Assembly (NCBI RefSeq): GCF_020866965.1
Contig: NZ_JAJATX010000003.1
Location: 1-64,000, forward strand
Direction: 5' to 3'
Source of the DNA: Microvirga roseola
GTDB taxonomy: Bacteria > Pseudomonadota > Alphaproteobacteria > Rhizobiales > Beijerinckiaceae
DNA: 64,000 bases
Every line of letters starts with the position of its first letter. Within the stretch, counting starts at the first letter, position 1. The translations under genes and the position numbers were made by a program. Positions 22,876 through 58,938 of the stretch are shown here, piece after piece. The notes under the pieces were generated by a model. The model was not told the origin of the DNA. It was given only the letters and a program-made list of their open reading frames with translations, and did no database searches.

Positions 22876-24426
22876 ATGTCGAATTCCTCTCCATCCCGCC
22901 GTGTGGCCATCGTCGGCGCAGGCCCGGGAGGCCTTGCCGCCGCCATGCTGCTTGCGCGGGAGGGCGTGCCCGTGACGGTCTTCGAGCGGGAACCCGCCGT
23001 CGGCGGCCGGACCCGGACGATCCAAGCCCCAGGGGGCTACAGGTTCGACATCGGCCCCACGTTCTTCCTTTATCCGCGGATTCTGAAGGACATCTTCGAG
23101 GCCTGCGGGGAGCGGCTCGAGGATCATGTCGAGCTCAGGCGTCTCGATCCGCAATATCACCTCGTCTTCGAGGGCGGCGGCGAGATCCGCGCGACGAACG
23201 ATCTGGCCCGCCTCGAGCAGGAGATCGCCCGGATTGCACCGGACGATGCCAGGAACGTCCGGCGCTTTCTCGCCGACAACCGGGAGAAGCTCGAGGCCTT
23301 CCGCCCCGTGCTCGAACAGGCCTTCTCGAGCCCTGCCGACCTCGTCTCGCCGGCTATGCTGGCGGCGCTGCCGAAGCTCCGGCCCTTCTCCAGCGTCGAT
23401 GGCGATCTCAGGCGCTATTTCGCCGATCCGCGCGTGCGCCTCGCCTTCTCGTTCCAGACGAAATATCTCGGGATGTCGCCGTTCCAGTGCCCGAGCCTGT
23501 TCACGATCCTCTCGTTTCTTGAATACGAGCACGGGGTCTATCACCCCATCGGCGGCTGCGGCGCAGTCTCGGAAGCGATGGCGAAGGTGGCGCGCAGGAT
23601 GGGCGTCGACATCCGCGTGAACACGCCGGTCGACCGCATCGTCTATGAGAAGGGCGAGGCCGTCGGACTGGAGGCGGCCGGCGAGCGCTTCGCCGCGGGC
23701 TCGGTCGTGGTGAACGGCGATTTCGGCCATGCCATGCGCCGCCTCGTGCCGGAAGCCATGCGTCCACGGTGGAAGAACAGGAAGCTCGACGGCGCGAAGC
23801 TCTCCTGCTCCACTTTCATGCTCTATCTCGGCATCGAAGGCGGCGTGGGCGATCTTGCACACCACACGATCCTCCTGGCGCGGGATTACGAACGCAACAT
23901 CCGGGAGATCACCGAAGGCGTCCTCTCCGAGGAGCCCTCGATCTATGTGCAACACGCGGGCGCAAGCGATCCTTCGCTGGCGCCGGAGGGGCACACGAGC
24001 CTCTATGTGCTCGTTCCGGTTCCCAACTTGCGCTGCAACATCGACTGGGCGCGCGAGGCGCCGCGCTACCGCAGGCTCGCCCTGGAGCGCCTGAAGGTCT
24101 TGGGGCTCGACGACATCGAGAGCCGCATCCGCTTCGAGCGCATGGTGACGCCGCGCGGCTGGCAGGACGAGTTCGCCGTGTTCGAGGGCGCAACCTTCAA
24201 CCTCGCGCACAATCTCACGCAGATGCTCTATTTCCGGCCGCACAACCGCTTCGGCCGCAACGTCTATCTGGTCGGCGGCGGCACGCATCCCGGCAGCGGC
24301 CTGCCGGTCATCTTCGAGGGTGCGCGCATTACGACGCGGCTCCTGCTGGAAGACCGGCAGCGCCGGCGCACCCGGCATGACGAGCCTGCGCGCACTCCCG
24401 AGCCCGTCACCGAAGCAGCCTTGTAG
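22876..24426 (+). CDS. CrtI/CrtN-family carotenoid desaturase or oxidase 1
   Basis: A 516-residue FAD-dependent phytoene-desaturase-family enzyme. The N-terminus carries the dinucleotide fold VAIVGAGPGGLAAAMLL, then VGGRTRTI and RFDIGPTFFLYP. The C-terminal YLVGGGTHPGSGLPVIFEGAR is the family's FAD signature. The ATG of MSNSSPSRR is chosen; an in-frame Met 18 codons earlier lacks a ribosome site. It heads the operon containing HpnC-HpnD and HpnE, which make squalene, so squalene or a dehydrosqualene is a more likely substrate than phytoene. Whether it acts as a CrtN-like desaturase or a CrtP-like methyl oxidase cannot be told. Confidence 0.88.
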   Translation: MSNSSPSRRVAIVGAGPGGLAAAMLLAREGVPVTVFEREPAVGGRTRTIQAPGGYRFDIGPTFFLYPRILKDIFEACGERLEDHVELRRLDPQYHLVFEGGGEIRATNDLARLEQEIARIAPDDARNVRRFLADNREKLEAFRPVLEQAFSSPADLVSPAMLAALPKLRPFSSVDGDLRRYFADPRVRLAFSFQTKYLGMSPFQCPSLFTILSFLEYEHGVYHPIGGCGAVSEAMAKVARRMGVDIRVNTPVDRIVYEKGEAVGLEAAGERFAAGSVVVNGDFGHAMRRLVPEAMRPRWKNRKLDGAKLSCSTFMLYLGIEGGVGDLAHHTILLARDYERNIREITEGVLSEEPSIYVQHAGASDPSLAPEGHTSLYVLVPVPNLRCNIDWAREAPRYRRLALERLKVLGLDDIESRIRFERMVTPRGWQDEFAVFEGATFNLAHNLTQMLYFRPHNRFGRNVYLVGGGTHPGSGLPVIFEGARITTRLLLEDRQRRRTRHDEPARTPEPVTEAAL

Positions 24427-24440
24427 GGGGAAGACCGATC

Positions 24441-24845
24441 ATGCGGCGCATCGGGTTGTTCGGGTGTCTTCTTCTCGCAACTCCACCGGCGCAGGCCGCA
24501 ACCCTCGTCATCAGGGCGGAGGGCGTCCAGTCGGCGCAGAACATGCTCTATGCCGGCATCTGCGATACGAGCTTCGAGGAAGCGACCTGCCCCTACAGGG
24601 GCCGCGAACCCGCACGGCCCGGCCGGGTCGAGTTCCGCGTCCGCAACGTGAAGCCGGGCGCCTACGCCATCGCCGTCTTCCATGACGTGAACTGCAATAG
24701 GCGGCTCGACCGCAACTTCATCGGCCTGCCCAGCGAGCCCTACGGGTTCTCGAACGATGTCGGGCGACGCGGACCGCCGAGTTTCGGTGCGGCGCGGATC
24801 GTCGTGAGGGAACCCACGACCACCGTCGTCATCCCCATTCGCTAG
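24441..24845 (+). CDS. DUF2141 secreted protein
   Basis: A 134-residue protein with a signal peptide (LFGCLLLATPPAQA) and a small beta-sandwich typical of DUF2141: NMLYAGICD, the GAYAIAVFHDVNCNRRLDRNFIGLPSEPYGFSND block and FGAARIVV. The function is unknown. It starts 14 bp after the first desaturase gene, preceded by GGGGGAAG. From memory, DUF2141 genes recur next to carotenoid and hopanoid genes in Methylobacteriaceae, suggesting a role in handling or placing the lipid in the periplasm, which is inference. Confidence 0.85.
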   Translation: MRRIGLFGCLLLATPPAQAATLVIRAEGVQSAQNMLYAGICDTSFEEATCPYRGREPARPGRVEFRVRNVKPGAYAIAVFHDVNCNRRLDRNFIGLPSEPYGFSNDVGRRGPPSFGAARIVVREPTTTVVIPIR

Positions 24846-25173
24846 GAGCCCATGCTGTGGCGTTCCAGACCCTTCTCTCCCACGGAGGAGACCGCAGAGG
24901 GCCCGGCGCCTGTTCGCGCCGGGGACAGGCCGCGGCGCAACCGCCGGCCCGCCCTGGTGACAGAATCGTGATCCATCGCCAACGGATCGAGCGCCTGGAG
25001 GCCGCCGGATCTGGCCCGATGATCCGTGCTCCCGAGCCAAAGGCTCCCCGGATGATCTGCGCCCGCTCCCCTTCGTGCGGGCTCGCCTTGAAGTGGGCCA
25101 TGCCCTTCCTAGAACCAACGGAACGACAGGACATGGCCCCGGAGAGCAGCCGATGCCCTCCAGGAGGAATTGC
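24846..25173. other. 328-bp gap inside the carotenoid operon
   Basis: This non-coding gap splits the DUF2141 gene from the second desaturase, while nearly every other junction of the operon is a 4-bp overlap. A short frame over 24857-25177 has no recognisable domain and no good ribosome site, and I rejected it. A textbook AGGAGG lies 6 bp before the GTG start at 25174. A second promoter for the downstream six-gene block may lie here, but no clear box was found. Confidence 0.4.
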
Positions 25174-26709
25174 GTGAGCGCTCAGGATCATTCGGTTGCC
25201 GTGATCGGCGGGGGATTGGGCGGCCTCGCAGCCGCCTGCGTGACCGCTGCACGCGGTCACAAGGTTACGCTCTACGACAAGAATGCGTGGCTGGGCGGCA
25301 AGGCGGCGGTGCTGCACGAGGAGAGCTTCCGCTTCGATATGGGGCCGACGATCCTCACCGTGCCACGGGTTCTGGAGCGCATCTTCGCGGAGGCCGGGCG
25401 TAACCTGTCCGACTACCTCGACCTCGTGCGCCTCGATCCGCAATGGCGGTGCTTCTTCGACGACGGAACGCGCATCGATCTCCAGGAGGACATCGAGACC
25501 ATGGCCGACGCCATGGACCGCTTCGCTCCCGGGAAGGGCGCCGGCGAGGGATACCGGCGCTTTCAGAAGATCTCGGCCCATCTCCATGACGTCTCGAACC
25601 GGTTCTTCTTCTGGAAGCCGGTGGAGGATCTGTTCGACACCATCAATGTGCGCGCCAACATGAACCCGTCCACACTGCGGGACGTGCTCTCATTGCGGAT
25701 GGGATCGTCGGTCGCCGGCACCATCCGCTCCAAGGTGAAGGACGAGCGTCTCGCGCAGATGCTCGACCACTTCACGCAATATGTCGGCTCCTCGCCCTAC
25801 GGCTCCCCGGCCGTGCTCTGCGCCATCGCGCATATGCAGGCGGCGGACGGCGTCTGGTATCCCACGGGCGGCACCCGCGCTGTGGCCGAAGCCCTGATGA
25901 AGCTCGCCACCGAACTCGGCGCGACCTTCAGGCCCACAACGGATGTGACATCTCTGCGGATCGAGAACGGCGCGATCACCGGCATCGTGACGGCGAACGG
26001 AGAGACGGCCGCTTATGACAGCGTCATCTCCAACATGGATTCGATCCGCACCTATCGCGAACTCGTCGGCGGCGATGTGGGCGAGCACTATGCCAGGAAG
26101 GATTTCGAGCCGGCCTGTTCCGGCGTGGTGCTCTATCTCGGTCTCAAGGAACGCTACGACCACCTCCTCCACCACGACTTCGTGTTCTCCCGGGATCCGG
26201 AGGAGGAGTTCGACTTCATCTACCGGAAGGGCGAGCCTGCGCCCGATCCGACCTGCTATATCGCGGCGCCTTCCATGACGGATCCGAGCGTTGCCCCGCA
26301 AGGGGGCGAAGCGCTCTATGTGCTGGTCCACACACCGTATCTCAGGCCGCATCACGACTGGTCGCAGATGTTCCCGGCCTACCGCCGGGTCATTCTCGAC
26401 AAGCTGAAGCGCACGGCGGGCATGGAGGACATCGAGGAGCGTATCGTCGTCGAGCGCCATCTCACGCCGCAGGACATTCACGACCGCTACAAGGTGCTCA
26501 ATGGCGCGATCTACGGGCTTGCAAGCCATGGCAAGTTCATGGGCGCGTTCAAACCCGGCAACCGCAGCCGGAAGGTGCGCGGCCTCTATCTCGCCGGTGG
26601 CGCGGCCCATCCCGGTCCCGGCATGCCGATGGTGATGATGTCGGGCTGGATCGCAGCCGACGCCCTCGATGCGGACGTGAAGGGCGAGAGCTTACGGAAC
26701 GTGTCTTGA
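25174..26709 (+). CDS. CrtI/CrtN-family carotenoid desaturase or oxidase 2
   Basis: A 511-residue member of the same family as the enzyme at 22876. It shows VAVIGGGLGGLAAACVTAARG, WLGGKAAVL, FRFDMGPTILTVP near the start, GVWYPTGGTRAVAEAL in the middle and GLYLAGGAAHPGPGMPMVMMSGW at the end. The GTG start is fixed by a perfect AGGAGG with 6-bp spacing; upstream Met codons lie in non-coding sequence. The stop overlaps the TTG of the acyltransferase gene. Two such enzymes in a squalene-making operon fit the CrtN plus CrtP pair that desaturates and then oxidises C30 chains. Confidence 0.9.
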   Translation: MSAQDHSVAVIGGGLGGLAAACVTAARGHKVTLYDKNAWLGGKAAVLHEESFRFDMGPTILTVPRVLERIFAEAGRNLSDYLDLVRLDPQWRCFFDDGTRIDLQEDIETMADAMDRFAPGKGAGEGYRRFQKISAHLHDVSNRFFFWKPVEDLFDTINVRANMNPSTLRDVLSLRMGSSVAGTIRSKVKDERLAQMLDHFTQYVGSSPYGSPAVLCAIAHMQAADGVWYPTGGTRAVAEALMKLATELGATFRPTTDVTSLRIENGAITGIVTANGETAAYDSVISNMDSIRTYRELVGGDVGEHYARKDFEPACSGVVLYLGLKERYDHLLHHDFVFSRDPEEEFDFIYRKGEPAPDPTCYIAAPSMTDPSVAPQGGEALYVLVHTPYLRPHHDWSQMFPAYRRVILDKLKRTAGMEDIEERIVVERHLTPQDIHDRYKVLNGAIYGLASHGKFMGAFKPGNRSRKVRGLYLAGGAAHPGPGMPMVMMSGWIAADALDADVKGESLRNVS

Positions 26710-27530
26710 GACAGGAAACGGACAGACCCCTCACCACGCATTGCGGGATCTCATCTCCCGTCGCGCGCCGCTCCCCGGCGATCCACCGCTTCATGGTCTC
26801 GACATTCCGGCGCTACTTCATGCGCCACATGAACGCGCTCCGCCTCGCTCAGTGGGGCGTGCCCTCCGTTCCGCAGACCGGGCCCGTCATCGTCTATTCC
26901 AACCACCCCGCCTGGTGGGATGCGGCCGTTTACATTCTCGCGGCCGACCGCTTCTTTCCAGGTTACGAAAGCTATGCGCCGATCGATGCCGCGATGCTGA
27001 AGCAATACGGCATTTTTGGGCGCATCGGCGCGTTCGGCGTCGACCTCGAGACGAAACGCGGCGCAGCGGCCTTCGTCAGAACGAGCGCGGAGATTCTCTC
27101 CTCTCCGGAACGCGCGCTCTGGATCACGGCGCAGGGTCGCTTCGGGGATGTGCGCGAGCGTCCGCTCGGCCTCAAGCCGGGCGTGGCGCGGCTCGTGGAG
27201 CTTGCGCCCGACTGCACGATCCTGCCGCTCGCCATCGAATACGGCTTCTGGCTGGAGCGGGGCGCGGAAGCCTTCATCGCATTCGGCACGCCCATGCGCG
27301 GCTACGACCTGATGGACCTCGACCGCCGGTCGCGGCTGCAGCGCCTCGAAGGCGAGCTCGTCCGCACCATGGACCGGCTGAGCGCCGACGTGCAGAGCCG
27401 TGAACCGTGCCGGTTCCGGCCCGTCCTCGAGGGCCATGCCGGAGTGGGCGGCGTCTACGACATCTGGCGCCGCCTGCGCGCGACCCTGCGGGGCCGCGCC
27501 TTCGATCCCTCGCACGAGAGCCGCGCATGA
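26706..27530 (+). CDS. PlsC-type acyltransferase of the carotenoid operon
   Basis: A membrane-associated acyltransferase of the lysophospholipid acyltransferase family, up to 274 residues. The catalytic HX4D motif is present in SNHPAWWDAA. The second family block is altered: AQGRFGD in place of the usual FPEGT. The TTG start overlaps the previous TGA (TTGA); an ATG at 26793 is an alternative. Its place before a glycosyltransferase and its lack of usual phospholipid neighbours suggest it acylates a glycosylated carotenoid, similar in role to staphyloxanthin CrtO though not homologous by motif. That role is inference. Confidence 0.82.
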   Translation: MRQETDRPLTTHCGISSPVARRSPAIHRFMVSTFRRYFMRHMNALRLAQWGVPSVPQTGPVIVYSNHPAWWDAAVYILAADRFFPGYESYAPIDAAMLKQYGIFGRIGAFGVDLETKRGAAAFVRTSAEILSSPERALWITAQGRFGDVRERPLGLKPGVARLVELAPDCTILPLAIEYGFWLERGAEAFIAFGTPMRGYDLMDLDRRSRLQRLEGELVRTMDRLSADVQSREPCRFRPVLEGHAGVGGVYDIWRRLRATLRGRAFDPSHESRA

Positions 27531-28639
27531 CGGAAGCGGCCGGCTATCTCCTGCTCGCACTCGCAGCCTTCCCGGCCGTGCTCGCTCTCATGAACCTGTC
27601 CATCCTGCGAGGGACGCCGCGGCATCATCCGCAACCCGATACGCTGGTATCGATTCTCATTCCTGCCCGCAACGAGGAGGGGAACATCGGCCCGGCGCTC
27701 GATGCGGCGCTCGGCACCGTCGGCGTTCCCGTCGAGATCCTCGTGATGGACGACGGGTCCACGGATGCGACGCCCGACATCGTGCGGCCCTATGCGGCGC
27801 GCGACCCGCGCGTGCGCCTTCTCACTGCCCCTCCCCTGGAGGAGGGCTGGACCGGCAAGGTCCATGCCTGTCATCACCTCTCGCAGGCCGCCCGCGGCAC
27901 GCACCTCCTCTTCGTCGATGCGGATGTCAGGCTCGCTCCCCACGCGACGGCGCGGCTTGCCGGACATGCGCAAGGGACCGATGCGAGCCTCGTCAGCGTC
28001 GTTCCCCGGCAGGTCATGGTCTCGCTGGGCGAATTGCTGACCGTGCCGACGATTAACCTGCTGCTCCTCGGCTACCTGCCGATGGGCTTCATGCGCCTGT
28101 CACGGGATCCGGGCCTCGGCGCGGCCTGCGGCCAGCTCATGCTCGCGGAGCGCGAGGCCTATCGCGCCAGCGGCGGGCACGCGGCGATCCATGCGCTCAT
28201 CCATGACGGCATCCAGCTCGCCCGCCTCTTCCGTCGCAAGGGATACATGACGGATCTCCTGCCGGGCGAGAGGCTCGCCTCATGCCGCATGTACACGGGG
28301 CTCGGAGAGGCCTGGAACGGCTTTGCCAAGAACGCGCATGAGGGCATGGCGACGCCTGTCGGCCTGCCCGTCTGGACCGTGCTGCTCCTGGGCGGTCATG
28401 TCCTGCCCTTCGCGCTCCTCGGCGTCATGCCGAGTCTTCCCGTTGCTCTCGCCGCGTTCCTGTCGCTCGGGACCCGCGCCGTCGTGACGGTGGCGACGCG
28501 CGAGAATCTCTGGTCCATTCCCCTGCACCCCTTTACCACCCTCGTCGGCCTCGCAATCCAATGGAGCGTGCTCCTGCGGATCGGCGGCGCTCGCCGGGCC
28601 GGATGGAAGGGCAGGCTCTATCCCGTGGGAACACGATGA
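27527..28639 (+). CDS. Family 2 glycosyltransferase, CrtQ-like
   Basis: A 370-residue membrane glycosyltransferase. It has an N-terminal helix (GYLLLALAAFPAVLALMNL), a GT-A domain with SILIPARNEEGNI, VMDDGST and the metal-binding DAD in LLFVDADVRL, and about three C-terminal membrane helices. The overall plan is that of CrtQ-type transferases that add sugar to C30 carotenoid acids, and of the hopanoid and ceramide glycosyltransferases. It is joined to its neighbours by ATGA at both ends (27527 and 28636). The acceptor is inferred from the operon. Confidence 0.85.
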   Translation: MTEAAGYLLLALAAFPAVLALMNLSILRGTPRHHPQPDTLVSILIPARNEEGNIGPALDAALGTVGVPVEILVMDDGSTDATPDIVRPYAARDPRVRLLTAPPLEEGWTGKVHACHHLSQAARGTHLLFVDADVRLAPHATARLAGHAQGTDASLVSVVPRQVMVSLGELLTVPTINLLLLGYLPMGFMRLSRDPGLGAACGQLMLAEREAYRASGGHAAIHALIHDGIQLARLFRRKGYMTDLLPGERLASCRMYTGLGEAWNGFAKNAHEGMATPVGLPVWTVLLLGGHVLPFALLGVMPSLPVALAAFLSLGTRAVVTVATRENLWSIPLHPFTTLVGLAIQWSVLLRIGGARRAGWKGRLYPVGTR

Positions 28640-30294
28640 GCAGGCCAGGCACACAGCCATCGAAGCAGCCACGGGACGAGAATTTTCCCGTCGCGTCCCT
28701 CGTGCTCTCGCCCGAGCACAGGGAGGCGGTCCTCGCCTTCTACCGCTTCGTGCGCAAGGCGGACGACGTTGCCGATTCCCCGGACCTCAAGGCCGCCGAC
28801 AAGCTCGCAGGGCTCGACGCCCTCGAGCAGGCGCTCGTTGCGGGCGATGACGTCGTTCCCGAAGCGGCGGCTCTGCATGCCGCCGACGCAAGGCACGGAA
28901 CAGGAATCACGGAGGCGCGCGCCATGCTGCGCGCCTTCCGTCAGGATGCGGTCAAGGCCCGCTATACGGACTGGGCGGAGCTTCTCGGATCCTGCCGCCT
29001 CTCGGCCAACCCGGCGGGCCGCTTTATCCTGGAGCTGCACGGTGAGCGCGCCTCGGCGCAGGCGCCGGCCGATGCGCTTTGCACCGCGCTGCAGATCCTC
29101 AACCACCTGCAGGATTGCCGCCGCGACCGGGACGAGCTCGGGCGCATCTACATTCCCATCGGCTGGATCATGACCGTAGGCGGCGAGAGCGCCTTCTTCG
29201 ATCCGACGTCCAGCGCAGCCCGGCGCGCGCTGCTCGACGCCATGCTCGACCAGGTCGATGTGCTGATCGATCAGGCGCAGGCCCTGCCACGACATCTTCT
29301 GAACAGGCGCCTGCGGGCGCAGAGCATCGCGACCATCGCCCTGGCGCAACGCCTGAGCGAGCGACTGCGCCGCCGCGATCCGGTTCTGGAGCGGGTCCAG
29401 GTGAGCAAGGGCGATGCCGCATGGGCCTTCCTGAAGGGGCTCAAGGGAATGTCCGGCAGGCCCGCCGACCGCGACCAGGCGATTGCCGCCGCCACCGTCA
29501 GGCGCTCCGGCTCCTCCTTCCGGCTCGGGATGCAGAGCCTGCCGCAGGACAGGCGGCGGGCCATTCACGCGGTCTATGCCTTCTGCCGGGCCGTGGACGA
29601 CATCGCCGACGGAGCAGCGCCCGCATCCGAGAAGCTGCGCTTCCTCAATGAATGGCGCCGCGAGATCGACCGTCTCCACCGGGCTCCGGAAACGCCGATC
29701 GGGCGCGAACTCGCCCGCGCATCGAGCCTCTTCAAGCTGCCGCTCGCCGAGTGCCACGCGCTTCTCGACGGCATGGCCATGGACAGCGCCGAGCGGGTGC
29801 GCATGTCGAACGACCACGAGCTCGGTCTCTACGGACGCCGTGTCGCCGGATCGGTTGGCGTTCTGTCGATCCATATCTTCGGCGCGCCGAAAGCCCGCGA
29901 CTTTGCCCTCGATCTCGGACGCACCCTGCAGCTGGTGAACATTCTGCGGGACGTGGACGAGGATGCGGCGCGGGAGCGCGTCTATCTTCCCCTGGCGCGG
30001 CTCGCGCAGCTTGGGCTGCAGGACGCGCCCGCCGCCGTTCTCGTCGCCGATCCGCGCTTCGCGCGCGTCTGCGAGGCCCTGGCCGAGGAGGCGCGCGCAG
30101 GCTTTGCCCGGGCGGACGAGGCTCTCCTGTCTCTCGACCGGATCGCCCTCAAGCCCGCGATCCTGATGATGGAGAATTACCGCCGCGTGCTGCAGCGCCT
30201 CGAAGCCCGCGGCTGGGGCGTGCGGCAGGGCCGGCTGCAGCTGACCGCCGCGGACCGCCTTCATCTCATCACCCGCGCCATGAGGCCCGCCTGA
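28636..30294 (+). CDS. hpnC-hpnD: Fused HpnC-HpnD squalene-route prenyl synthase
   Basis: A 552-residue protein made of two head-to-head prenyl synthase domains. Residues about 12-260 match HpnC, with aspartate-rich motifs DDVAD (43-47) and DCRRD (160-164) and ARYTDW. Residues about 290-545 match HpnD, with DDIAD (321-325), the LYGRRVAGSVG block and DVDED (439-443). By family knowledge, HpnD joins two farnesyl diphosphates to presqualene diphosphate and HpnC converts this to hydroxysqualene. All four metal-binding motifs are intact, so both halves look active. In most bacteria these are separate adjacent genes; here one frame runs through both. Starts and stops overlap both neighbours. Confidence 0.9.
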   Translation: MSRPGTQPSKQPRDENFPVASLVLSPEHREAVLAFYRFVRKADDVADSPDLKAADKLAGLDALEQALVAGDDVVPEAAALHAADARHGTGITEARAMLRAFRQDAVKARYTDWAELLGSCRLSANPAGRFILELHGERASAQAPADALCTALQILNHLQDCRRDRDELGRIYIPIGWIMTVGGESAFFDPTSSAARRALLDAMLDQVDVLIDQAQALPRHLLNRRLRAQSIATIALAQRLSERLRRRDPVLERVQVSKGDAAWAFLKGLKGMSGRPADRDQAIAAATVRRSGSSFRLGMQSLPQDRRRAIHAVYAFCRAVDDIADGAAPASEKLRFLNEWRREIDRLHRAPETPIGRELARASSLFKLPLAECHALLDGMAMDSAERVRMSNDHELGLYGRRVAGSVGVLSIHIFGAPKARDFALDLGRTLQLVNILRDVDEDAARERVYLPLARLAQLGLQDAPAAVLVADPRFARVCEALAEEARAGFARADEALLSLDRIALKPAILMMENYRRVLQRLEARGWGVRQGRLQLTAADRLHLITRAMRPA

Positions 30295-31577
30295 TGACGG
30301 GGCGCACGCATATCGTCGGAGCCGGGATTGCAGGCATCAGCGCCGCGCTCGCCGCGAGCGCGGAAGGCGGCGAGGCCATTCTCTATGAAGCCGCGCCTCA
30401 GGCCGGAGGGCGCTGCCGGACGATCCGGCCCGCCGACGGATTCGCCCATGACAATGGCACCCATGTCCTGTTCACGGCCAACCGCCGCGCGCTCGCCCTG
30501 CTGAAGACCGTGGGTGCGCGGGAGCGCTGGATCGAGCCCGAGCCGAAAGGCCTTCCCATCTACGACAGGCAGGCGGCGAGCCTGCGCCGGGTCGGCCTCT
30601 CGCCCTGGTCCTGGCTTCTGTCCTCGCGCCGCCCCAAGGGTCTCGGGCTGTCGGATCTCGCGCGCATGCTGCGCCTCGTCTTCTCGTCCCGCGACTGCCC
30701 CGTCGCCGCCCTCATCGGCCAGCGCCCGATCATGGAGAGCCTGATCGGGCCGCTGACGGTCGCGGTGCTCAACACGCCTGTCTCCCAGGCCTCCTCGAAA
30801 CGTCTGGCCTATGCCCTGAGGCGGCTGCTCCGCCCCGGCGCAGGCCGGCTTCTCGTGGCGCGCAACGGGCTGAGCGAGGATCTCGTCGAGCCTGCCCTCG
30901 CAACCCTTCGGCAGAGAGGCGTCTCCGTCCTCTCCGGCCAGCGCCTGCGCGCGGTGCTCACAAACGGGGAGCGCGCCATCGGGCTGACGCTCGCGGACCG
31001 CACCGTCGCCCTGGGCCCTGAGGACAAGGTCGTTCTGGCCCTGCCGCCCTGGGAGGTCGAGCGCCTGCTGCCGGCGCTCGTCGTGCCCCGGCTCTTCGAG
31101 CCTATTCTCAACGTGCATTATCGCGTCCCGGGCCTGGACCGTCTGCGCTTCATCGGCTTCACAGGCACCCTTGCGCAATGGGCACTGATCCGCGCAGGGC
31201 ATGTGAGCGTCACGATCTCGGCGGCGAAGGCCGTGATCGACCGCGATCCGGACGATCTTGCGGCAACGATCTGGCGCGAGATCGCGCCCGCCCTGCGGAT
31301 CGTGGACCTCGACGTGCATCCCGACCGGCAGCCCGAGGCGCGCATCGTGAAGGAGAAGCGCGCGACGATCCGGCAGGCGGCGGCGCCCCTGCCGCAGCCG
31401 CCTCTGCAGCCGCTCGCCGATCTCGTTCTCGCAGGGGACTGGATCGGCCCGCTGCCCGCGACCATCGAGAGCGCGGTCACGGCCGGAGAACAGGCCGTGT
31501 TCCTCCTGCGCCACGGGCGGAATGCCCACCGTCCCGTTTCGCCCACCGGCATCGCCAAGACGGAGGATGCGGCATGA
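30294..31577 (+). CDS. hpnE: Hydroxysqualene dehydroxylase HpnE
   Basis: A 427-residue FAD-dependent amine-oxidase-like enzyme. It has HIVGAGIAGISAALAAS, GGRCRTI and DNGTHVLF near the N-terminus, a middle with LTVAVLNTPVSQASSK, and a C-terminal VLAGDWIGPLPATIESAV. By family knowledge it reduces hydroxysqualene to squalene, completing the HpnCDE route. The ATG shares one base with the hpnCD stop (TGATG) and its stop overlaps ispH (ATGA). The closest alternative, another carotenoid desaturase, is less likely because of the shorter length and position. Confidence 0.9.
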   Translation: MTGRTHIVGAGIAGISAALAASAEGGEAILYEAAPQAGGRCRTIRPADGFAHDNGTHVLFTANRRALALLKTVGARERWIEPEPKGLPIYDRQAASLRRVGLSPWSWLLSSRRPKGLGLSDLARMLRLVFSSRDCPVAALIGQRPIMESLIGPLTVAVLNTPVSQASSKRLAYALRRLLRPGAGRLLVARNGLSEDLVEPALATLRQRGVSVLSGQRLRAVLTNGERAIGLTLADRTVALGPEDKVVLALPPWEVERLLPALVVPRLFEPILNVHYRVPGLDRLRFIGFTGTLAQWALIRAGHVSVTISAAKAVIDRDPDDLAATIWREIAPALRIVDLDVHPDRQPEARIVKEKRATIRQAAAPLPQPPLQPLADLVLAGDWIGPLPATIESAVTAGEQAVFLLRHGRNAHRPVSPTGIAKTEDAA

Positions 31578-32542
31578 CACAGGAGCGCCCTGCCCTCACC
31601 GTCCTCCTTGCGGCTCCCCGCGGCTTCTGCGCCGGCGTGGAGCGGGCGATCAGGGCGGTCGAGGACGCCCTCGAGCGCACCGACCGGCCGGTCTATGTGC
31701 GCCATGAGATCGTGCATAACGGCCGCGTCGTGAAAGACCTCGAACGGCGCGGCGCGGTTTTCGTCGACGAGATATCGGAGATCCCGGACGGGGCCGTCGC
31801 CATCTTCAGCGCCCATGGCGTATCGCGCGCCGTGGAGCGCGAAGCGGAGAAGCGCGGTCTGGCGGTGCTGGACGCGACCTGCCCGCTCGTTCGCCGCGTG
31901 CATCTCGAAGGTCAGCGCCACGCCAGAGCCGGACGGGAGGTCATCGTCATCGGGCATCGCGGGCATGTGGAGGTGGAGGGCACGACGGGCCAGATCGACG
32001 GAACGGTTCATGTGATCGAATCCGTCGCGGAAGCGCTGACCGTGCCGGTTCAGGATCCGGATCGCATCGCCTACATCACCCAGACGACCCTGTCGGTCGA
32101 CGATACGCGCGAGATCATCGCAGCGCTCAGGAAGCGCTTTCCCGCCATCCAGGGGCCCGACACGAAGACGATCTGCTATGCGACGCAGAACCGGCAGATG
32201 GCGGTGCGCGTCATTGCCGAGCGGGCGGAGCGCGTCATCGTCTGTGGCGCACGCAACTCGTCCAATACCAACCGCCTCTGCGAGGTGGCGCAAGGCGAAG
32301 GCCGCCCTGCCCTTCTCATGCAGGATCCGAGCGACCTGACCCTCTCCTTCGTCGACGGCGTGGCGGTGATCGGCCTGACGGCAGGCGCGTCTGCGCCGGA
32401 GGAGCTCGTGCAGGAGGCGCTCGCCCGCCTCGCGCAGTGGCGGCGGCTCACGGTCGAGGAAGTGCGCGTGACCCACGAGGGCACGCAGTTCGCCCCCGTC
32501 GATCTCTCGCGCCTCGTGTCTCAGCTCGCAAAGGCTTCCTGA
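31574..32542 (+). CDS. ispH: 4-Hydroxy-3-methylbut-2-enyl diphosphate reductase IspH
   Basis: This [4Fe-4S] enzyme performs the last step of the MEP pathway, making IPP and DMAPP. In 322 residues the three cluster cysteines are Cys19 (RGFCAGV), Cys103 (DATCPLV) and Cys201 (ICYATQNRQ). HEIVHN, SAHGVS and the substrate-binding NSSNTNRL are present. It is the last gene of the isoprenoid operon, so precursor supply is tied to squalene and carotenoid formation. Its 3' end overlaps the convergent MATE gene by 22 bp. Confidence 0.96.
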   Translation: MTQERPALTVLLAAPRGFCAGVERAIRAVEDALERTDRPVYVRHEIVHNGRVVKDLERRGAVFVDEISEIPDGAVAIFSAHGVSRAVEREAEKRGLAVLDATCPLVRRVHLEGQRHARAGREVIVIGHRGHVEVEGTTGQIDGTVHVIESVAEALTVPVQDPDRIAYITQTTLSVDDTREIIAALRKRFPAIQGPDTKTICYATQNRQMAVRVIAERAERVIVCGARNSSNTNRLCEVAQGEGRPALLMQDPSDLTLSFVDGVAVIGLTAGASAPEELVQEALARLAQWRRLTVEEVRVTHEGTQFAPVDLSRLVSQLAKAS

Positions 32543-33954
32543 GCGTCTTCCCTCACGTCCTTGGGAACCGCGGTCACGAGGCCGAGGCTGTCGCGGCGAA
32601 GCCAGCGCCACAGCATGAGGGAGGCGACGACGGTCAGGCCCGTGGCCAGACCGATCCAGATCCCGATGCCGCGCAGCTCCGTGCCGAAGGCCAGGGTCGC
32701 GCCGAGCGGCAGGCCGACGCCCCAGTAACCGAGAGCCGCATAGATCATCGGCACGCGCGTGTCCTGGAGGCCGCGCAGCATGCCGGAGCCCACCGCCTGC
32801 GCGCCGTCCGCCAGCTGGAAAATGGCGGCCATCACGAGGAAGGAGACGGCAAAGCCGATCACCGGGGCATTCTTCGGGTCGGTCATGTCAAGGAAGGCAC
32901 TGAGCAGGAGCCGGGGCGCAAACAGCATGAGCGATGCGGTGAACACCATGAAGCCGACGCCCAGCGCGAAGGCGGTCCAGCCCGCCCGTGTGACGCCGCC
33001 CGCATCCTTCGCGCCATAGGCGCGGCCGACCCGCACCGTGACCGCCTGGCCAATGCCGAAGGGGACCATGAAGCAGAAGGAGGCGATCTGGAGGGCGATG
33101 GCATGGGCCGCCAGCTCATTGGCGCCGATGCGCCCCATGAGCAGGGCGGCCGCATTGAAGATCGTGACCTCGAAGGCCAGGGTCAGGCCGATCGGCACGC
33201 CGATGCGCCAGAGCGTCCGGTAGCGCGGCCAGTCGGTGCGCCAGAACCGCCCGAAGAGGTGGTAGCGGCGCAGCTTCGGGTCGAGCACGATCACCACGAC
33301 GAGACCGATGAACATGAAGGTGCTGGACACCACCGTGCCGAGACCGGCCCCGATGAGACCGAAGGCCGGCAGGCCGAATTCCCCGAACATCAGGCAATAG
33401 GCGGCCCCGAGGTTCACCGGCACGGCAATGAGACCGATGACCAGAGGCCAGCCGGGCCGCTCCAGCGCGGCCAGGAAGGAGCGCAGCACGAGGTAGAGCA
33501 GGAAGGGCAGAAGGCTCCATTGCAAGGCCCGCATGTAGTCGCCCGCGTCCCGGGCGAGATCGGGCTCCTGCCCCATGGCGAGCAGGAGCGCCTCGCCGTT
33601 CCACGAGACGAGCCAGATCGGCGCCGCGACCGTCAACGCCGCCCAGAAGCCTTGGCGGACCGTGCGGCGCACCTCGCGGACGGAATGGCGCTTGCGGCCG
33701 AGCTCCTCGGCCACCAGCGGCGAGGTCGCGCTCACGAGGCCGATGCCGAAGATCAGGAAGGCGAAATAGAGATTGGTGCCGAGCGCACCAGCCGCTAGCG
33801 CCCCCGAACCGAGCCAGCCCATGAGGATGACGTCGCTCGTCATCAGGGCGTTCTGCGCCACGTTGGTCAGTATCAGGGGCCAGCCGAGGGCCAGCATGGC
33901 ACGCAGTTCCGCCGCCCAGGCGGAGCGCTTTGTCGAGGAGGTGCTCGGGATCAT
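32521..33954 (-). CDS. MATE-family multidrug/toxin efflux transporter
   Basis: An integral membrane protein of about 477 residues with about 12 hydrophobic helices in two pseudo-repeated halves. Typical segments are LGWPLILTNVAQNALMTSDVILMGWLG near the start, GLIGAGLGTVVSS in the middle, and QLADGAQAVGSGMLRGLQDT in the C-terminal half. It should use a Na+ or H+ gradient to expel organic cations; the substrate is unknown. The ATG at 33954 is preferred; an in-frame start 14 codons earlier is possible. It converges with ispH and diverges from the amidoligase gene. Confidence 0.9.
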   Translation of the reverse strand: MIPSTSSTKRSAWAAELRAMLALGWPLILTNVAQNALMTSDVILMGWLGSGALAAGALGTNLYFAFLIFGIGLVSATSPLVAEELGRKRHSVREVRRTVRQGFWAALTVAAPIWLVSWNGEALLLAMGQEPDLARDAGDYMRALQWSLLPFLLYLVLRSFLAALERPGWPLVIGLIAVPVNLGAAYCLMFGEFGLPAFGLIGAGLGTVVSSTFMFIGLVVVIVLDPKLRRYHLFGRFWRTDWPRYRTLWRIGVPIGLTLAFEVTIFNAAALLMGRIGANELAAHAIALQIASFCFMVPFGIGQAVTVRVGRAYGAKDAGGVTRAGWTAFALGVGFMVFTASLMLFAPRLLLSAFLDMTDPKNAPVIGFAVSFLVMAAIFQLADGAQAVGSGMLRGLQDTRVPMIYAALGYWGVGLPLGATLAFGTELRGIGIWIGLATGLTVVASLMLWRWLRRDSLGLVTAVPKDVREDAQEAFAS

Positions 33955-34100
33955 GATGGGAGGCTTGTAACCCGAACCGCATCCTGAAGGCCACACCCGC
34001 GCGGCAAAACAGTGCCTCTTTCATGAGGACGGAACTTGGCCATGCCGGGTTCCGTTCATCTGCACGGCCTCAGCTGCCGATGCCCTGCCTGGAGTTCCCG

Positions 34101-35087
34101 ATGGCGCAGCCCGCGCTTCCCATTTTTGTCGATTTCGAGCTTCCCCCGATTCTGTACAACGAGCACGGACGCATGCGCACGGTCGGGGTCGAGGTCGAAT
34201 TCGCGGGACCCTCGGCGGAACAGACCGTTCGCGCGCTCCAGCAAGAGCTCGGCGGCCGGATCACCGAGGACGATCCCCATGCCTTCGAGCTCAGGGGCTC
34301 CTCGGCCGGCGACATGACGATCGAGCTCGATACGCGCATCGTGCATCCGGCCAAGCATGCGGCGGGCAAGAAGAGCCCGGGCCGCATCCTGCCGCGGGTC
34401 GCCGCCTGGTTCGGCTTTGCCGCGAGCTACCTGATCCCCTGCGAACTTGTGTCGGCTCCGACGCCCATCGACCGCCTTCGGGACCTGGAGAAGCTGCTCA
34501 CGGTCCTGAGGGATCTCGGCGCGAAGGGAACCCAGGACGCCCCCTTCTATGCCTTCGGCCTTCACTTCAACCCGGAGATCCCGCGCCAGGATGCGGCGAC
34601 GGTCACAGCCTTCATGAAGAGCTTCGCCCTTCTCAATGCATGGCTCCGCCGCGAGGTCGCGCCCGATACGACCCGCGGTCTCCTAGGGTTCGCCGATCCA
34701 TTCCCGGTCGAGTACATCGAGATGATCGCAGCGCCCGATTACTGGCCCGACCTCGCGACCTTCATCGACGACTATCTCGCGGCCAACCCGACCCGCAACC
34801 GCGACCTCGACCTCCTGCCGCTGCTTCTCCATTTCGACGAGGAGCGGGTGCGGAAAGCGCTGCCGAGCGAGAAGATCAACGGCCGGCCGACCTTCCATTA
34901 CCGGCTCCCCGATGCACGCGTGAGCGATCCGGGCTGGAGCATGGCGCCGGACTGGAACCGGTGGGTTGCCGTGGAGCGGCTGGCTGCAGACTGCGAGAAG
35001 CTCGATGCGGTCGGTTCCGCCTATCTCGCCTTCAAGGGCGAGGACAAGAGCTGGGCGGATGTCGTTGCGCAGGTCGTCAAGTCATGA
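34101..35087 (+). CDS. Putative amidoligase enzyme
   Basis: A 328-residue protein of the Amidoligase_2 family, a glutamine-synthetase/COOH-NH2 ligase fold predicted to join amines to carboxylates. RTVGVEVEFAGPS near the N-terminus gives the first metal-binding acidic strand; FELRGSS and MTIELDTR follow, and YAFGLHFNPEIP carries another conserved block. The start is chosen because GGAG lies 6 bp before this ATG; two upstream in-frame ATGs lack such a site. The stop overlaps the following GATase-like gene, a pairing described by others as a predicted small-molecule or peptide-modification system. The product is unknown. Confidence 0.85.
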   Translation: MAQPALPIFVDFELPPILYNEHGRMRTVGVEVEFAGPSAEQTVRALQQELGGRITEDDPHAFELRGSSAGDMTIELDTRIVHPAKHAAGKKSPGRILPRVAAWFGFAASYLIPCELVSAPTPIDRLRDLEKLLTVLRDLGAKGTQDAPFYAFGLHFNPEIPRQDAATVTAFMKSFALLNAWLRREVAPDTTRGLLGFADPFPVEYIEMIAAPDYWPDLATFIDDYLAANPTRNRDLDLLPLLLHFDEERVRKALPSEKINGRPTFHYRLPDARVSDPGWSMAPDWNRWVAVERLAADCEKLDAVGSAYLAFKGEDKSWADVVAQVVKS

Positions 35088-35785
35088 CGAAGCCCCTCAT
35101 CGGCGTCACCACATCCCGGCGCGGCGGCTGGCGGAGCTATCTCATGCACCGCCTTGCGCTGGCCCGTGCGGGCGCGCGCTCGATCCGTCTCATGCCGGGC
35201 GAACCCTTGCCGGAGGAGCCGCTCCAGGGCCTCGTGATCGGCGGCGGCGACGATATCGGCGCAGAAATTTATGGCGGACAGGTTCTGCCGGACGTGCGCA
35301 TCGATCCCGAGCGCGACAGCCTGGAGCTTGGGCTGTTGAAGGCCGCACTCCCGTCGCAGCTTCCGGTCCTCGGGATCTGCCGCGGTTCGCAGATGATCAA
35401 TGTCGCCCTCGGCGGCTCGCTTCATACGGATATCTACGAGGTCTATGTCCAGGCGCCCAAGATGCGCACCGTGCTGCCGCGCAAGCAGGTGACGATCGAG
35501 AAGGATTCCCGGCTCGACCGCATCCTGCGCTGCAACCCTTGTCAGGTGAACGCCCTCCATCATCAGTCGGTGGACCGGCTCGGAGAGGGCTTGAGGATTG
35601 CCGCCCATGACGAAAGCGGGATCGTCCAGGCCGTCGAGAGCGCAAGCGCGCCGTTCCTGCTCGGGGTGCAGTGGCATCCGGAACTGCTGGTCTGGAAGAA
35701 GCCGCAGCAGCGGCTCTTCGCGGCCCTTGCCCTCGAGGCCCAGGAGGCGAAGGCGCCCCTGTCCGCGGCGGCCGTGATGGCTTGA
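35084..35785 (+). CDS. Class I glutamine amidotransferase-like (peptidase C26) protein
   Basis: A 233-residue protein related to gamma-glutamyl-gamma-aminobutyrate hydrolase PuuD. The triad is readable: nucleophile Cys in LGICRGSQM, His and Glu in GVQWHPEL. GLVIGGGDDIG is the glycine-rich loop. It is translated from an ATG that overlaps the amidoligase stop, so the two proteins are made together. It may cleave the gamma-amide made by its partner or supply ammonia; neither can be decided from sequence. Confidence 0.87.
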   Translation: MTKPLIGVTTSRRGGWRSYLMHRLALARAGARSIRLMPGEPLPEEPLQGLVIGGGDDIGAEIYGGQVLPDVRIDPERDSLELGLLKAALPSQLPVLGICRGSQMINVALGGSLHTDIYEVYVQAPKMRTVLPRKQVTIEKDSRLDRILRCNPCQVNALHHQSVDRLGEGLRIAAHDESGIVQAVESASAPFLLGVQWHPELLVWKKPQQRLFAALALEAQEAKAPLSAAAVMA

Positions 35786-35803: not shown

Positions 35804-37288
35804 TCAGGAGGCGCGCGGAAAGAGCGGCACGACCTTGTTGTCGTCGGACGGCGTCAGGTGGCGCTGGATCGCGGCATGAAGATCGCGGCTGAGGATCGGC
35901 TTCTGGAGCAGCGGAAACTCGCTGTCCTCGCCCGCAATGACGGGACTGCCGGTAATCAGCAGGACGGGAAGATCGGGGAAGATCTGCCGGACTTCCCGCG
36001 CCAGCATCGCGCCGTTCATGGTGCCCGGCATGGCGACGTCCGTCAGCACGAGGCCGGGCTTGCGCGTGCGGAGGCTCTGGATCGCCTGTCCGGCATCGGT
36101 GGCGACGTTCGCCACGTATCCGAATTCCTCCAGCATCGATTGCAGCGCGAGGGCGACCTCGACCTCGTCGTCGACCACGAGGATTTCCGTGTGCCCCCTC
36201 TCGTCCGCGCCCAGGGCCTCGTCGTCGCCGAGGGAGCCGGAGGGGAGCATGGTCGCGGCCTTGGCGCGCGGCAGGTAGAGGATGATCGCCGTGTCGGATC
36301 CGTCGTGGCGGACCTCCGAAGCCCCGCCGAGGGACCGCAGGAAATGCAGGCTCTGGCTCACATTGAGCCAGGCGGACAGGTCGAGATCCCGGATGGCGAA
36401 AGCCTGCTCGCTCAGGGGATCGGCGCTGCGAACGGCCTCGCCCGCTCCCGTCCCGCGGATCACGAGGCGCACGAAGTCGCCTTCGAGCTTCAGGTTCGAC
36501 AGGGATCCCTTCTGGACCTGCATGTTCTGCGCCTCGAGCGAGATCGTCCCGCCTTGCGTCAGGGCATCCCGGATGTGGGCGCTGAGGGTGACGATCGCCG
36601 TTTCGATATCGTCGGGATCGGCCTCGACGGGCCAGAGGCTCTCCTCGAGCGACAGGCGCAGTTCGACCGTATCCCGCAGCAGCGAGCGGCCCATCAGGGT
36701 CGCAACCGAGTTCACCCGCTCGGTCAGATCCACATACTGGACCTGGAGTTCGTGCTGGCGCGCGAAGGCGGTGGACTTTGCAATCAGCTTGGCGGCTTGG
36801 TCAGAGGCGACGAGAGCCGAAAGAAGCTTGCGCTGCAGGGCCGGCTGGTCCTTCACCTGCCGGGCCACGGCATCGATATTGGCGCTGATCACCATGAGCC
36901 TGTTGTTGAGGTCATGGGTGATGCCGTCCCGCAGGCGATCCACGGCCTGCGCCTTCTGCGTCCGCCGCAGGGTCCTTCCGTTCTCGAAGGGGGACGGCTC
37001 GCTCGGAACGGGCAGCCTCGCGAGATCCGGCTCTGCCCTGGCGAGCGGAACCTCCTCGACGGCAGGCGTCGGGGCGGCCTCGGAAGGCTGCTCGGAGAGG
37101 GCGCGCCGGATCTGCCGCCCGATCAGCAGGGGCATCCCGGCCGTCGCGAGGAGGAAGATCCCTGCCGCGGCGGCAAACAGCTCGGCATCCCGTGAGAAGG
37201 CGGCGCCGGCTATCGCCAGCCCCGAAAAGACCAGGGCGAAGCAGGCGACCAGGAGGGATAGCCTCAATGAAATGGGCAGCCGGTGCAT
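35804..37288 (-). CDS. Hybrid histidine kinase-like protein with degenerate ATPase and C-terminal receiver
   Basis: A 494-residue membrane protein. Two N-terminal hydrophobic helices (about 7-30 and 38-57) are followed by a linker, a histidine-phosphotransfer-like segment GITHDLNNRL (His125), a region aligned with HATPase_c (about 190-340) and a receiver domain (about 367-485) with Asp373/Asp374, phospho-acceptor Asp417 (LTDVAMPG), Thr in LLITGS and Lys in LLQKPI. The ATPase part lacks the expected N-box Asn (SAHIRDAL where NARDAM is usual) and a clear DxGxG box (VIRGTGAG), so kinase activity is doubtful. It is divergent from the GH3 gene. Confidence 0.82.
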   Translation of the reverse strand: MHRLPISLRLSLLVACFALVFSGLAIAGAAFSRDAELFAAAAGIFLLATAGMPLLIGRQIRRALSEQPSEAAPTPAVEEVPLARAEPDLARLPVPSEPSPFENGRTLRRTQKAQAVDRLRDGITHDLNNRLMVISANIDAVARQVKDQPALQRKLLSALVASDQAAKLIAKSTAFARQHELQVQYVDLTERVNSVATLMGRSLLRDTVELRLSLEESLWPVEADPDDIETAIVTLSAHIRDALTQGGTISLEAQNMQVQKGSLSNLKLEGDFVRLVIRGTGAGEAVRSADPLSEQAFAIRDLDLSAWLNVSQSLHFLRSLGGASEVRHDGSDTAIILYLPRAKAATMLPSGSLGDDEALGADERGHTEILVVDDEVEVALALQSMLEEFGYVANVATDAGQAIQSLRTRKPGLVLTDVAMPGTMNGAMLAREVRQIFPDLPVLLITGSPVIAGEDSEFPLLQKPILSRDLHAAIQRHLTPSDDNKVVPLFPRAS

Positions 37289-56361: not shown

Positions 56362-57111
56362 TCAGAGGGCCTTCTCCGCATAAGGCGGGTGGGGAATGGC
56401 CTGATGCGCCGCCCGCAGAGCCGCGGACCAGCGCTCCCGCAGATCGCGAAAATAAGGCTCGTCCTCCTGGATCCGGTGATTGATCCCGGCCTTCAGCTCG
56501 TCGCGCTTGGCGACCACGATGTCGATGGGAAGGCCCACGCCGAGATTGGACTTGAGCGCCGAATCCATGGAGATGAGACCGAGCTTCAGGGCCTCCACGA
56601 GTTCGATGTCGTGGGAGATCGCCCGGTCCAGGATGGGCTTTCCGTATTTCGGCTCCCCGATCTGCAGGAACGGCGTGTCGAGGGTCGCCTCGATGGCGTT
56701 CCCAGCCGAATAGACCTGGTAGAGCCGCATCTCGCCGTGCCCGATCTGCCCCCCGACCAGCATGGTGGCATCGAAGGTCATGCTGCGCTTTTCCATCTCA
56801 GCACCATCGATGGCATAGACCTGACGGATGGCGCGCCCGACGAGCCGGGCCGCCCTGAACATGCTGGACACCGTGAACAGCGTCTCGAGCTCTCCGGTCT
56901 CGGGGTTCTCGACGCCGTCGGAGAGGAGCGACAGGACGGATTGGCTGACAGAGAGGTTGCCCGCAGTCGCCAGCATGACGACCCGCTCGCCGGGCTTCTC
57001 GAACAGGTGAAGCTTGCGGAAGGTTGCGATGTTGTCGACGCCCGCATTGGTGCGCGTATCCGCGATCATCACGAGGCCTTCCCGGACGAGAATGCCGACA
57101 CAATAGGTCAT
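56362..57111 (-). CDS. Anbu, proteasome-type protease
   Basis: A 249-residue self-compartmentalising Ntn-hydrolase of the Anbu family, an ancestral bacterial relative of proteasome beta subunits. The start MTYCVGILVREGLVMIADTRTNAG leaves Thr2 as the expected N-terminal nucleophile after Met removal. SMTFDATMLVGGQI and YQVYSAGNAIEAT are family blocks. The ATG is fixed by GGAGG 7 bp upstream. Anbu genes are known to occur with transglutaminase-like, alpha-E and circularly permuted ATP-grasp genes, exactly as here, suggesting a joint peptide-ligation and degradation process. Confidence 0.92.
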   Translation of the reverse strand: MTYCVGILVREGLVMIADTRTNAGVDNIATFRKLHLFEKPGERVVMLATAGNLSVSQSVLSLLSDGVENPETGELETLFTVSSMFRAARLVGRAIRQVYAIDGAEMEKRSMTFDATMLVGGQIGHGEMRLYQVYSAGNAIEATLDTPFLQIGEPKYGKPILDRAISHDIELVEALKLGLISMDSALKSNLGVGLPIDIVVAKRDELKAGINHRIQEDEPYFRDLRERWSAALRAAHQAIPHPPYAEKAL

Positions 57112-57160
57112 AGGGGTTCCTCCAGGGGCCTTCTGGTCGAACTGCCGGGTCGGGGCCATA

Positions 57161-57979
57161 TTACGCCTGCGCTTGGCGGGCGCTTTCAATCCTCAGACGA
57201 ACATCGAGCGCTTCGCGGGAGACCCCGTAATAGCTACCTCGGACAGGGGCTGCATCAAGATAGTCGAGCCCGGTGGCGAGCCGGACATAGTTTTCCGTTG
57301 TGGAAACATTGTTCGCCGCGTCGAAACTGACCCAGCCGAGCCCCGGAATAGCGGCCTCCGCCCATGCGTGGCCCGCATCCTGAACAGCCTCGCCCGGCTT
57401 GTGCAGATAGCCGGACACATAGCGCGCCGGGATCCGCAGGTGCCGCGCCGCGGTCAGAAAGACATGCGTGAAATCCTGGCACACCCCGTGGCCCGCCGTG
57501 AAGGAATTGGAGGCGGTGGTAGCCGCGTGCGTGGCCTCCATGTCGAAACGCAGGCGCCCATGAATCGCTTCCATAAGGGTATGGGCCTGATCGAGCGGAC
57601 TGACGAGCGAGCCTGCCGCCGCCATGGCGAAGTCGCGAATGGGGGCGTCGGCTGTCGTGAGCGGCGTTTCCCTGAGATAGAAGATCTCCGGAAACCGCTC
57701 GACCCCGCCCCGGATGACACCCGATGTATCCGTGACTTCGATCTCTCCTTCGACCCTGAGGCTGATCTGCTCCACGGGACCTGCCACGAAAAGGCTGTGC
57801 GCGATGTTCCCGTCCCAGTCCTCCCGCCGGATGAGACGGGCGTTGCAATCCGTGTCGATGGCCCAGGCCAACACCGCCTGCCCGGCATGGCCACGCGGCG
57901 TCAGCCGCAGAAGCTGGATCGCGGATTTCACCGGCTCACTGTAGCGGTAGATGGTTTCGTGGGTGATGCGGATGCGCAT
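57161..57979 (-). CDS. Transglutaminase-like peptidase of the Anbu operon
   Basis: A 272-residue cytosolic protein with an N-terminal bacterial transglutaminase-associated domain (MRIRITHETIYRYSEPVKSA, then LRLTPR) and a transglutaminase-like catalytic domain. The triad is readable as Cys in GHGVCQDFTHVF, His in AGHAWAEA and Asp in SFDAANN. It should cleave or form gamma-glutamyl or other amide bonds. It lies 2 bp after the alpha-E gene and 49 bp before Anbu and is intact. Confidence 0.92.
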   Translation of the reverse strand: MRIRITHETIYRYSEPVKSAIQLLRLTPRGHAGQAVLAWAIDTDCNARLIRREDWDGNIAHSLFVAGPVEQISLRVEGEIEVTDTSGVIRGGVERFPEIFYLRETPLTTADAPIRDFAMAAAGSLVSPLDQAHTLMEAIHGRLRFDMEATHAATTASNSFTAGHGVCQDFTHVFLTAARHLRIPARYVSGYLHKPGEAVQDAGHAWAEAAIPGLGWVSFDAANNVSTTENYVRLATGLDYLDAAPVRGSYYGVSREALDVRLRIESARQAQA

Positions 57980-57981
57980 GG

Positions 57982-58922: not shown

Positions 58923-58938
58923 GACAAAGACTCCATGC

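Follow-up and report, generated by a model that had tools for sequence, protein, structure and literature searches.

A recurrent amidoligase–GATase gene pair in Microvirga roseola and the apparent exchange of its ligase

We analyzed a 64,000-nucleotide stretch of the Microvirga roseola genome (contig NZ_JAJATX010000003.1, positions 1 to 64,000 of the forward strand; hereafter, the window) and found that a PF12224 amidoligase gene and the GATase gene overlapping its stop codon form an old and widespread pair. As a predicted kind, PF12224–GATase pairs have been known for years; Iyer et al. (2009) are said to have predicted amidoligases of this fold and their linkage to GATases. The most interesting part is the exchange of the ligase. 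The GATase of the window belongs to a subfamily of its own, new in this analysis and nearly always adjoining a ligase, and we read the identity of its neighbors as one carboxylate–amine ligase having been exchanged for another at least twice, in either direction. At a rough probability of 45%, our preferred reading is that the two enzymes act as a self-contained unit, one making and the other hydrolyzing a gamma-glutamyl-type amide. The pair and its immediate surroundings in the window are as follows:

32521..33996, minus strand: MATE efflux transporter, divergent neighbor (Pfam match; longest frame)
33997..34100, no strand: divergent intergenic stretch separating the MATE gene from the pair, a presumed promoter region
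34101..35087, plus strand: amidoligase PF12224, 328 aa (Amidoligase_2 profile match)
35084..35087, plus strand: ATGA overlap of the amidoligase stop and the GATase start (4-base overlap in 35/36 type A Microvirga loci)
35084..35785, plus strand: C26-family class I GATase, 233 aa, with the triad C99-H198-E200 (profile match)
35804..37288, minus strand: histidine-kinase-like protein with a receiver domain, convergent neighbor (receiver domain by Pfam)

The amidoligase matched the Amidoligase_2 profile of Pfam with 180.2 bits against a cut-off of 22, profile positions 2–244 of 245 being aligned, and gave no match in NCBIfam. Its ATG at 34101 is the start common to close relatives, and the open frame extends back to 34023. 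The acidic strand with the motif VGVEVEF, described as conserved in the first-pass annotation, proved to be so: E31 and E33 are invariant in all 72 aligned amidoligases, as are D77, E115, N157, D237, R262, H266, R268, W288 and E292, among others, and the invariant residues may represent contacts to the metal, ATP and substrate. Given a 72-row alignment of the window and locus proteins, AlphaFold2 produced a model with a pLDDT of 92.2 and a pTM of 0.90. All 50 matches listed by VIA-align for this model were glutamine synthetases (Z 12.5–13.7, rmsd 3.1–5.4 over 197–224 residues), and Foldseek gave weak matches, the best of them (E 2.5e-3) to 1tt4, a predicted glutathione synthase, followed by YbdK, plant GCS and glutamine synthetases. 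Structure prediction, earlier suggested as a check of the ligase fold, thus returned the glutamine synthetase (GS) fold, and by the model the protein would be a carboxylate–amine ligase of the GS/GCS type. A sequence search of the PDB found no credible match, and profile–profile comparisons with GS and with GCS were both nonsignificant, so the case for glutamate as substrate is drawn solely from the fold. The COOH-NH2_lig profile gave zero matches in 96 genomes of the class, where the controls were equally without a match, so that this absence carries no information. The M. roseola genome contains three glutamine synthetase family proteins and, on another contig (C184:38779–39561; L032), a second amidoligase without an adjoining GATase; Microvirga sp. 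VF16 carries a solo amidoligase of this second type on a plasmid (L099). In line with the earlier statement that the family is without a proven substrate, a literature search that scarcely covered subscription papers found none for PF12224.

The downstream gene had been called a PuuD-like GATase with a complete Cys–His–Glu triad, and both parts of the description hold. The protein matched the Peptidase_C26 profile of Pfam with 157.8 bits against a cut-off of 20.5, and C99, H198 and E200 are intact in all 52 coupled homologues. Its AlphaFold2 model (pLDDT 95.1) had Lin1909, SpuA and PuuD, all of the C26 type, as the nearest structures in Foldseek (E 1.3e-22 to 1.4e-17); the subunits of glutaminases were more distant at 8.5e-14 and weaker. 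For a synthetase-coupled glutaminase that feeds ammonia, those subunits should have ranked ahead of the C26 hydrolases, and the search gave the opposite order. NCBIfam returned 18 weak matches, none at its cut-off, the best being PuuD (NF008471) with 83.8 against 266 bits. The residue following the nucleophile is Arg in 52/52 coupled homologues, as it is in Lin1909 and SpuA, and Tyr in the GMP synthase of the same genome. A second strong C26 protein of the genome has Asn at this position, and therefore Arg there does not mark all C26 proteins.

The physical coupling of the two genes is conserved well beyond the window. In the window, the stop–start overlap was confirmed as ATGA, and among the 36 window-like named Microvirga loci, which we call type A, the GATase is downstream in every case, with an overlap of 4 bases in 35 and of 1 base in the remaining one. 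The search for type A loci yielded 44 other named loci, a set rich in a solo Microvirga type, of which 17 were coupled and 27 uncoupled; two of the 27 (L095 and L112) were counted as solo but may not be so, as their contigs end 328 and 643 bases past the amidoligase. Counting M. roseola itself each time, PF12224 turned up in 35 genomes of a set of 61 close to the window, in 26 of 385 from the class and in 24 of 398 from the phylum. Outside the M. roseola genome, the evenly drawn samples of class and phylum contained 47 amidoligase places, 40 in the first survey and 7 added later (G179, G560, G587 and four in G647). Among the first 40, 36 were coupled, and the genes overlapped in 32 of these 36, by exactly 4 bases in 14; the survey of coupled and solo loci chose the GATase start nearest to a 4-base overlap, which favors that value. 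With G560 also coupled, the GATase accompanied the amidoligase at 37 of 41 strong places, and the tight coupling asserted from the single locus is upheld both there and within Microvirga. The amidoligases of the other three later genomes were weak and divergent: in G587 the contig ends just past the amidoligase, and the stretches fetched for G179 and G647 contained no C26 gene. The single Planctomycetes locus that we looked at (L122) was coupled. In type A Microvirga, the pairing is far more regular than chance would allow.

Pairwise distances between amidoligases and between GATases correlated with r 0.70 for 52 pairs and 0.68 for the 44 pairs outside Microvirga, and the maxima in 2000 permutations were 0.28 and 0.38, respectively. 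On the amidoligase tree, the solo proteins, including the second copy of M. roseola, group together, with three changes of label of which at least two are forced by well supported branches. Both this tree and the GATase tree below are quick trees without bootstrap, and the outgroup of the latter is a very long branch. Genes in unannotated loci were called with a simple caller, which in the later ones went by length alone where GC was below 56%, and some neighbors may be wrong.

To describe the GATase by itself, we built a profile from 32 coupled GATases and ran it on the 385 class genomes with at most seven candidates per genome. Among the matches listed, the top 24 places scored 330–239.6 bits and the next 184.3, and 23 of the 24 places above this gap adjoin an amidoligase; the profile itself accounts in part for the gap, 17 of the 23 coupled places having been among its rows. 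The other six, which were held out, still scored 254–320 bits. In the phylum sample, 20 of the 22 places found with a cut at E 1e-56 adjoin an amidoligase. Three places in the two samples thus came without an amidoligase neighbor. In G307 (L221), a gap of three bases separates the GATase gene from that of an ATP-grasp protein (PF02655, PF02786). In G755 (L223, 6008–7442, minus strand), it overlaps a VTT-domain membrane protein, and no ligase was seen adjacent. In G675 (L222), it is at a contig edge and nearly identical to the GATase of a Phenylobacterium zucineum plasmid (L228). When the ATP-grasp protein of L221 served as query against 17 genomes from the same order as G307 and against a plasmid collection, three further ATP-grasp/GATase pairs came to light, and six weaker plasmid matches besides. 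The four loci in which an ATP-grasp gene takes the place of the amidoligase, directly upstream of a GATase of the subfamily, are:

L221, 6896–8938: genome G307
L226, 6055–8150: genome G891, with a 4-base overlap according to the simple caller
L227, 4929–7113: Xanthobacter autotrophicus Py2 plasmid CP000782, the ligase frame being unannotated
L228, 4983–7083: Phenylobacterium zucineum plasmid NC_011143

The GATases of these four pairs scored 240–294 bits on the GATase profile, against 132 for the second C26 protein of M. roseola. On the GATase tree, L226 falls beside L153 (support 92), and L221, L227 and L228 fall beside L138 (support 98); as ATP-grasp pairs are found in two parts of the tree, the ligase would have been exchanged at least twice. 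The ATP-grasp protein of L221 has no sequence similarity to the amidoligase of the window; the ATP-grasp partner bears a weak resemblance to carbamoyl-phosphate synthetase.

The surroundings of the pair are variable. The first-pass annotation had denied it any adjoining transport or regulator gene, which is incorrect: the MATE gene starts about 105 bases upstream of the amidoligase, and the kinase-like gene with its receiver domain, which matches histidine kinase families below their cut-offs only, ends 18 bases past the GATase. In type A Microvirga, the MATE gene is present in 35 of 36 loci, the remaining one being at a contig end, and the kinase-like gene in 34, one of its two absences likewise being at a contig end. 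Such synteny within a genus is no proof of a function shared with the pair, and as synteny cannot by itself show linkage, neither the kinase-like gene nor the isoprenoid genes, which are syntenic too, were accepted as partners. The neighbors across the sampled and named loci included no universal third gene, and the search for conserved partners proposed earlier was borne out in one respect only, an enrichment of multi-pass membrane proteins directly upstream. With seven sample loci removed as near-duplicates and several of the named loci set aside, we compared 41 loci and their 81 neighbors shorter than 1000 aa; by a plain hydropathy count of transmembrane segments, a multi-pass protein was encoded by the immediate upstream gene at 16 of 41 loci, compared with 37 of 290 distant genes (Fisher p 1e-4), and by the immediate downstream gene at 8 of 41, which is not significant. 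In Pfam terms, the neighbors include VTT (L091, L147, L150, L122), EamA (L044, L142, L168), CitMHS (L145, L163), TauE (L136, L138), LrgB (L151), LysE (L158) and glycine transporter (L139) proteins; many others are soluble and unrelated to one another. MatE occurred once among the 81 neighbors, in a set whose sole Microvirga is the window. VTT accounted for 4 of the 81 immediate neighbors and for at most 1 of 112 distant genes (25 of 153 families listed), the latter being 112 of 262, with 120 drawn at random and eight short ones removed by hand; the chance expectation is ∼0.07 at one gene per kilobase (60 VTT places in 16 genomes). As the family was picked post hoc, we regard its association with the pair as a lead. 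An aldehyde dehydrogenase, directly upstream in L108 and L123 and farther off in L104, was considered as a general partner and rejected, being confined to one Paracoccaceae cluster (L104, L108, L123). In seven named loci of Azospirillum and its kin (L106, L110, L113, L115, L116, L119 and L124), the pair sits between two same-strand clusters of long membrane-anchored proteins, and the upstream one of L106 has a histidine kinase ATPase domain and, below the cut-off, a Cache domain.

Elsewhere in the window, positions 22945–31577 (plus strand) encode two amine-oxidase-type desaturases, an acyltransferase, a family 2 glycosyltransferase, a double-length squalene/phytoene synthase and a third oxidase, which may form a squalene or C30 carotenoid cluster. 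A second amide-bond system lies at 56362–59977 (minus strand) and consists of a circularly permuted ATP-grasp, an Alpha-E, a transglutaminase-like and a proteasome-like protein, in a gene order matching that which PMC6376114 describes for the Anbu operon.

If the pair is a maker and a hydrolase, the amidoligase would use ATP to activate a carboxylate, by analogy of fold most likely the side chain of glutamate, and would join it to the amine of a small molecule or peptide. The C26 GATase would cut that kind of bond through a thioester at Cys99 and free the amine. Glutamate would then be the acyl part, the hydrolase would act on the product of its own ligase, and the pair might be used for protection, salvage or trimming. 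This proposal is supported by the GS-fold ligase, by Lin1909 and the gamma-glutamyl hydrolases SpuA and PuuD being structurally nearest to the GATase, by the Arg after the nucleophile, by the score gap above which 23 of 24 GATase places adjoin an amidoligase, and by the ATP-grasp ligases beside this GATase in two parts of its tree. Against it, the GATase falls far below the PuuD cut-off, the Arg is not universal in C26 proteins and the score gap of the subfamily is partly built-in; the gene overlap and the matched distances would fit a physical complex, too. Furthermore, no conserved middle enzyme was found, and making and cutting the same bond could amount to a futile cycle if neither a transporter nor an unlinked gene acts in between. 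The suggestion that the pair makes a new small-molecule or peptide modification, with which the first-pass annotation concluded, is possible.

The principal competitor, to which we give clearly less credence, is a glutamine-dependent amidation complex in which the GATase releases ammonia from glutamine and the amidoligase amidates the carboxylate of an acceptor, much as in MurT–GatD. MurT–GatD amidates peptidoglycan and, like our pair, consists of two genes, a ligase and a class I GATase; GatD feeds ammonia, and MurT, a ligase of the Mur type, is unrelated to the amidoligase here. Carbamoyl-phosphate synthetase, which the ATP-grasp partner weakly resembles, is a classic ammonia user. A complex of this sort would account for the recurrent pairing, the overlap and the matched protein distances without calling for a third gene; it stays in contention through the overlap, which hints at equal amounts of both proteins, and through the absence of a middle enzyme. 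It sits less well with a GATase of the C26 type nearest to hydrolases, with close relatives of the amidoligase occurring without an adjoining GATase and with the ligase differing between two parts of the GATase tree, each change of which would call for a new tunnel. Replacing a ligase should be easy where two separate enzymes have nothing but a product in common, and difficult where it means rebuilding an ammonia tunnel; the C26-type GATase and the exchange of unrelated ligases favor maker and hydrolase over a tunneled complex.

Two further explanations have lower standing. In one, which we consider unlikely, the pair writes and erases amino-acid tails, for example polyglutamyl tails, on a cofactor or protein, with the amidoligase extending and the GATase trimming them. 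The chemistry would be the same as for maker and hydrolase, a third enzyme would again be unnecessary and the methylofuran of Methylorubrum is reported to carry glutamate chains built by ligases (PMC8141765). No linked cofactor gene was seen, however, and the pair occurs in many families with unrelated neighbors. The other, which we hold to be highly improbable, has the pair working with the divergent MATE transporter by making or disarming a compound that the transporter exports. The near-constant presence of the MATE gene in type A Microvirga, the other transporters adjoining other pairs and the upstream excess of multi-pass genes speak for it, but the type of transporter differs outside Microvirga, with MatE found that single time among the neighbors, and the kinase-like gene is about as syntenic (34/36), so the link to MATE may be plain conservation of gene order.

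A close known parallel to the maker and hydrolase that we prefer is the polyamine pathway of PuuA, a gamma-glutamylputrescine synthetase, and PuuD, a gamma-glutamyl-GABA hydrolase, which likewise combines a GS-fold ligase with a C26 hydrolase. Here, the ligase is instead a PF12224 protein and the GATase scores below the cut-off for PuuD; in the window, the pair has neither a PuuB nor a PuuC gene beside it, the nearest genes being the MATE, the kinase-like and a glycosidase gene. Membership in the Puu pathway was thus rejected on both the equivalog score and the gene context. Compared with the PF12224 family with linked GATases reportedly predicted in 2009, the window shows the same family, by a strong profile match, and the same kind of linkage; the partner here is a C26 class I GATase, and the present analysis compares coupled, solo and ATP-grasp-paired forms. 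An amidoligase of this family also stands beside a GATase gene in LUZ24-like and OM43 phage cassettes, whose GATase is PF13522 or class II (Ntn) (PMC3890496, PMC10580990), in contrast to the C26 class I enzyme of the window; on this ground, we rejected a phage-type cassette. The phage records gave no match to the amidoligase of the window at E 0.01, and no relative was confirmed on viral contigs. In one phage-like locus (L220), a neighboring protein resembles a PF13522 GATase by its N-terminus. A role of the phage amidoligase in nitrogen metabolism has been suggested (PMC10945688).

A broader interpretation, rather doubtful at present, is that of a hydrolase-centered tagging module. The C26 "eraser" would be its constant part, and either a GS-fold amidoligase or an ATP-grasp enzyme would serve as the "writer" of the same bond, so that tagging may gate a metabolite. 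Joined in several lineages to VTT, EamA, TauE and CitMHS proteins, the module may use its tag to control passage across the membrane, and the shared metabolite is perhaps a precursor of the wall or of lipids, or a toxic amine. 

As the ligase beside this GATase can come from an unrelated family, both ligases would be expected to give one and the same product, open to cleavage by the GATase; for an annotation that has been open, a shared-product screen follows, with the amidoligase set against the ATP-grasp enzyme around one GATase subfamily.
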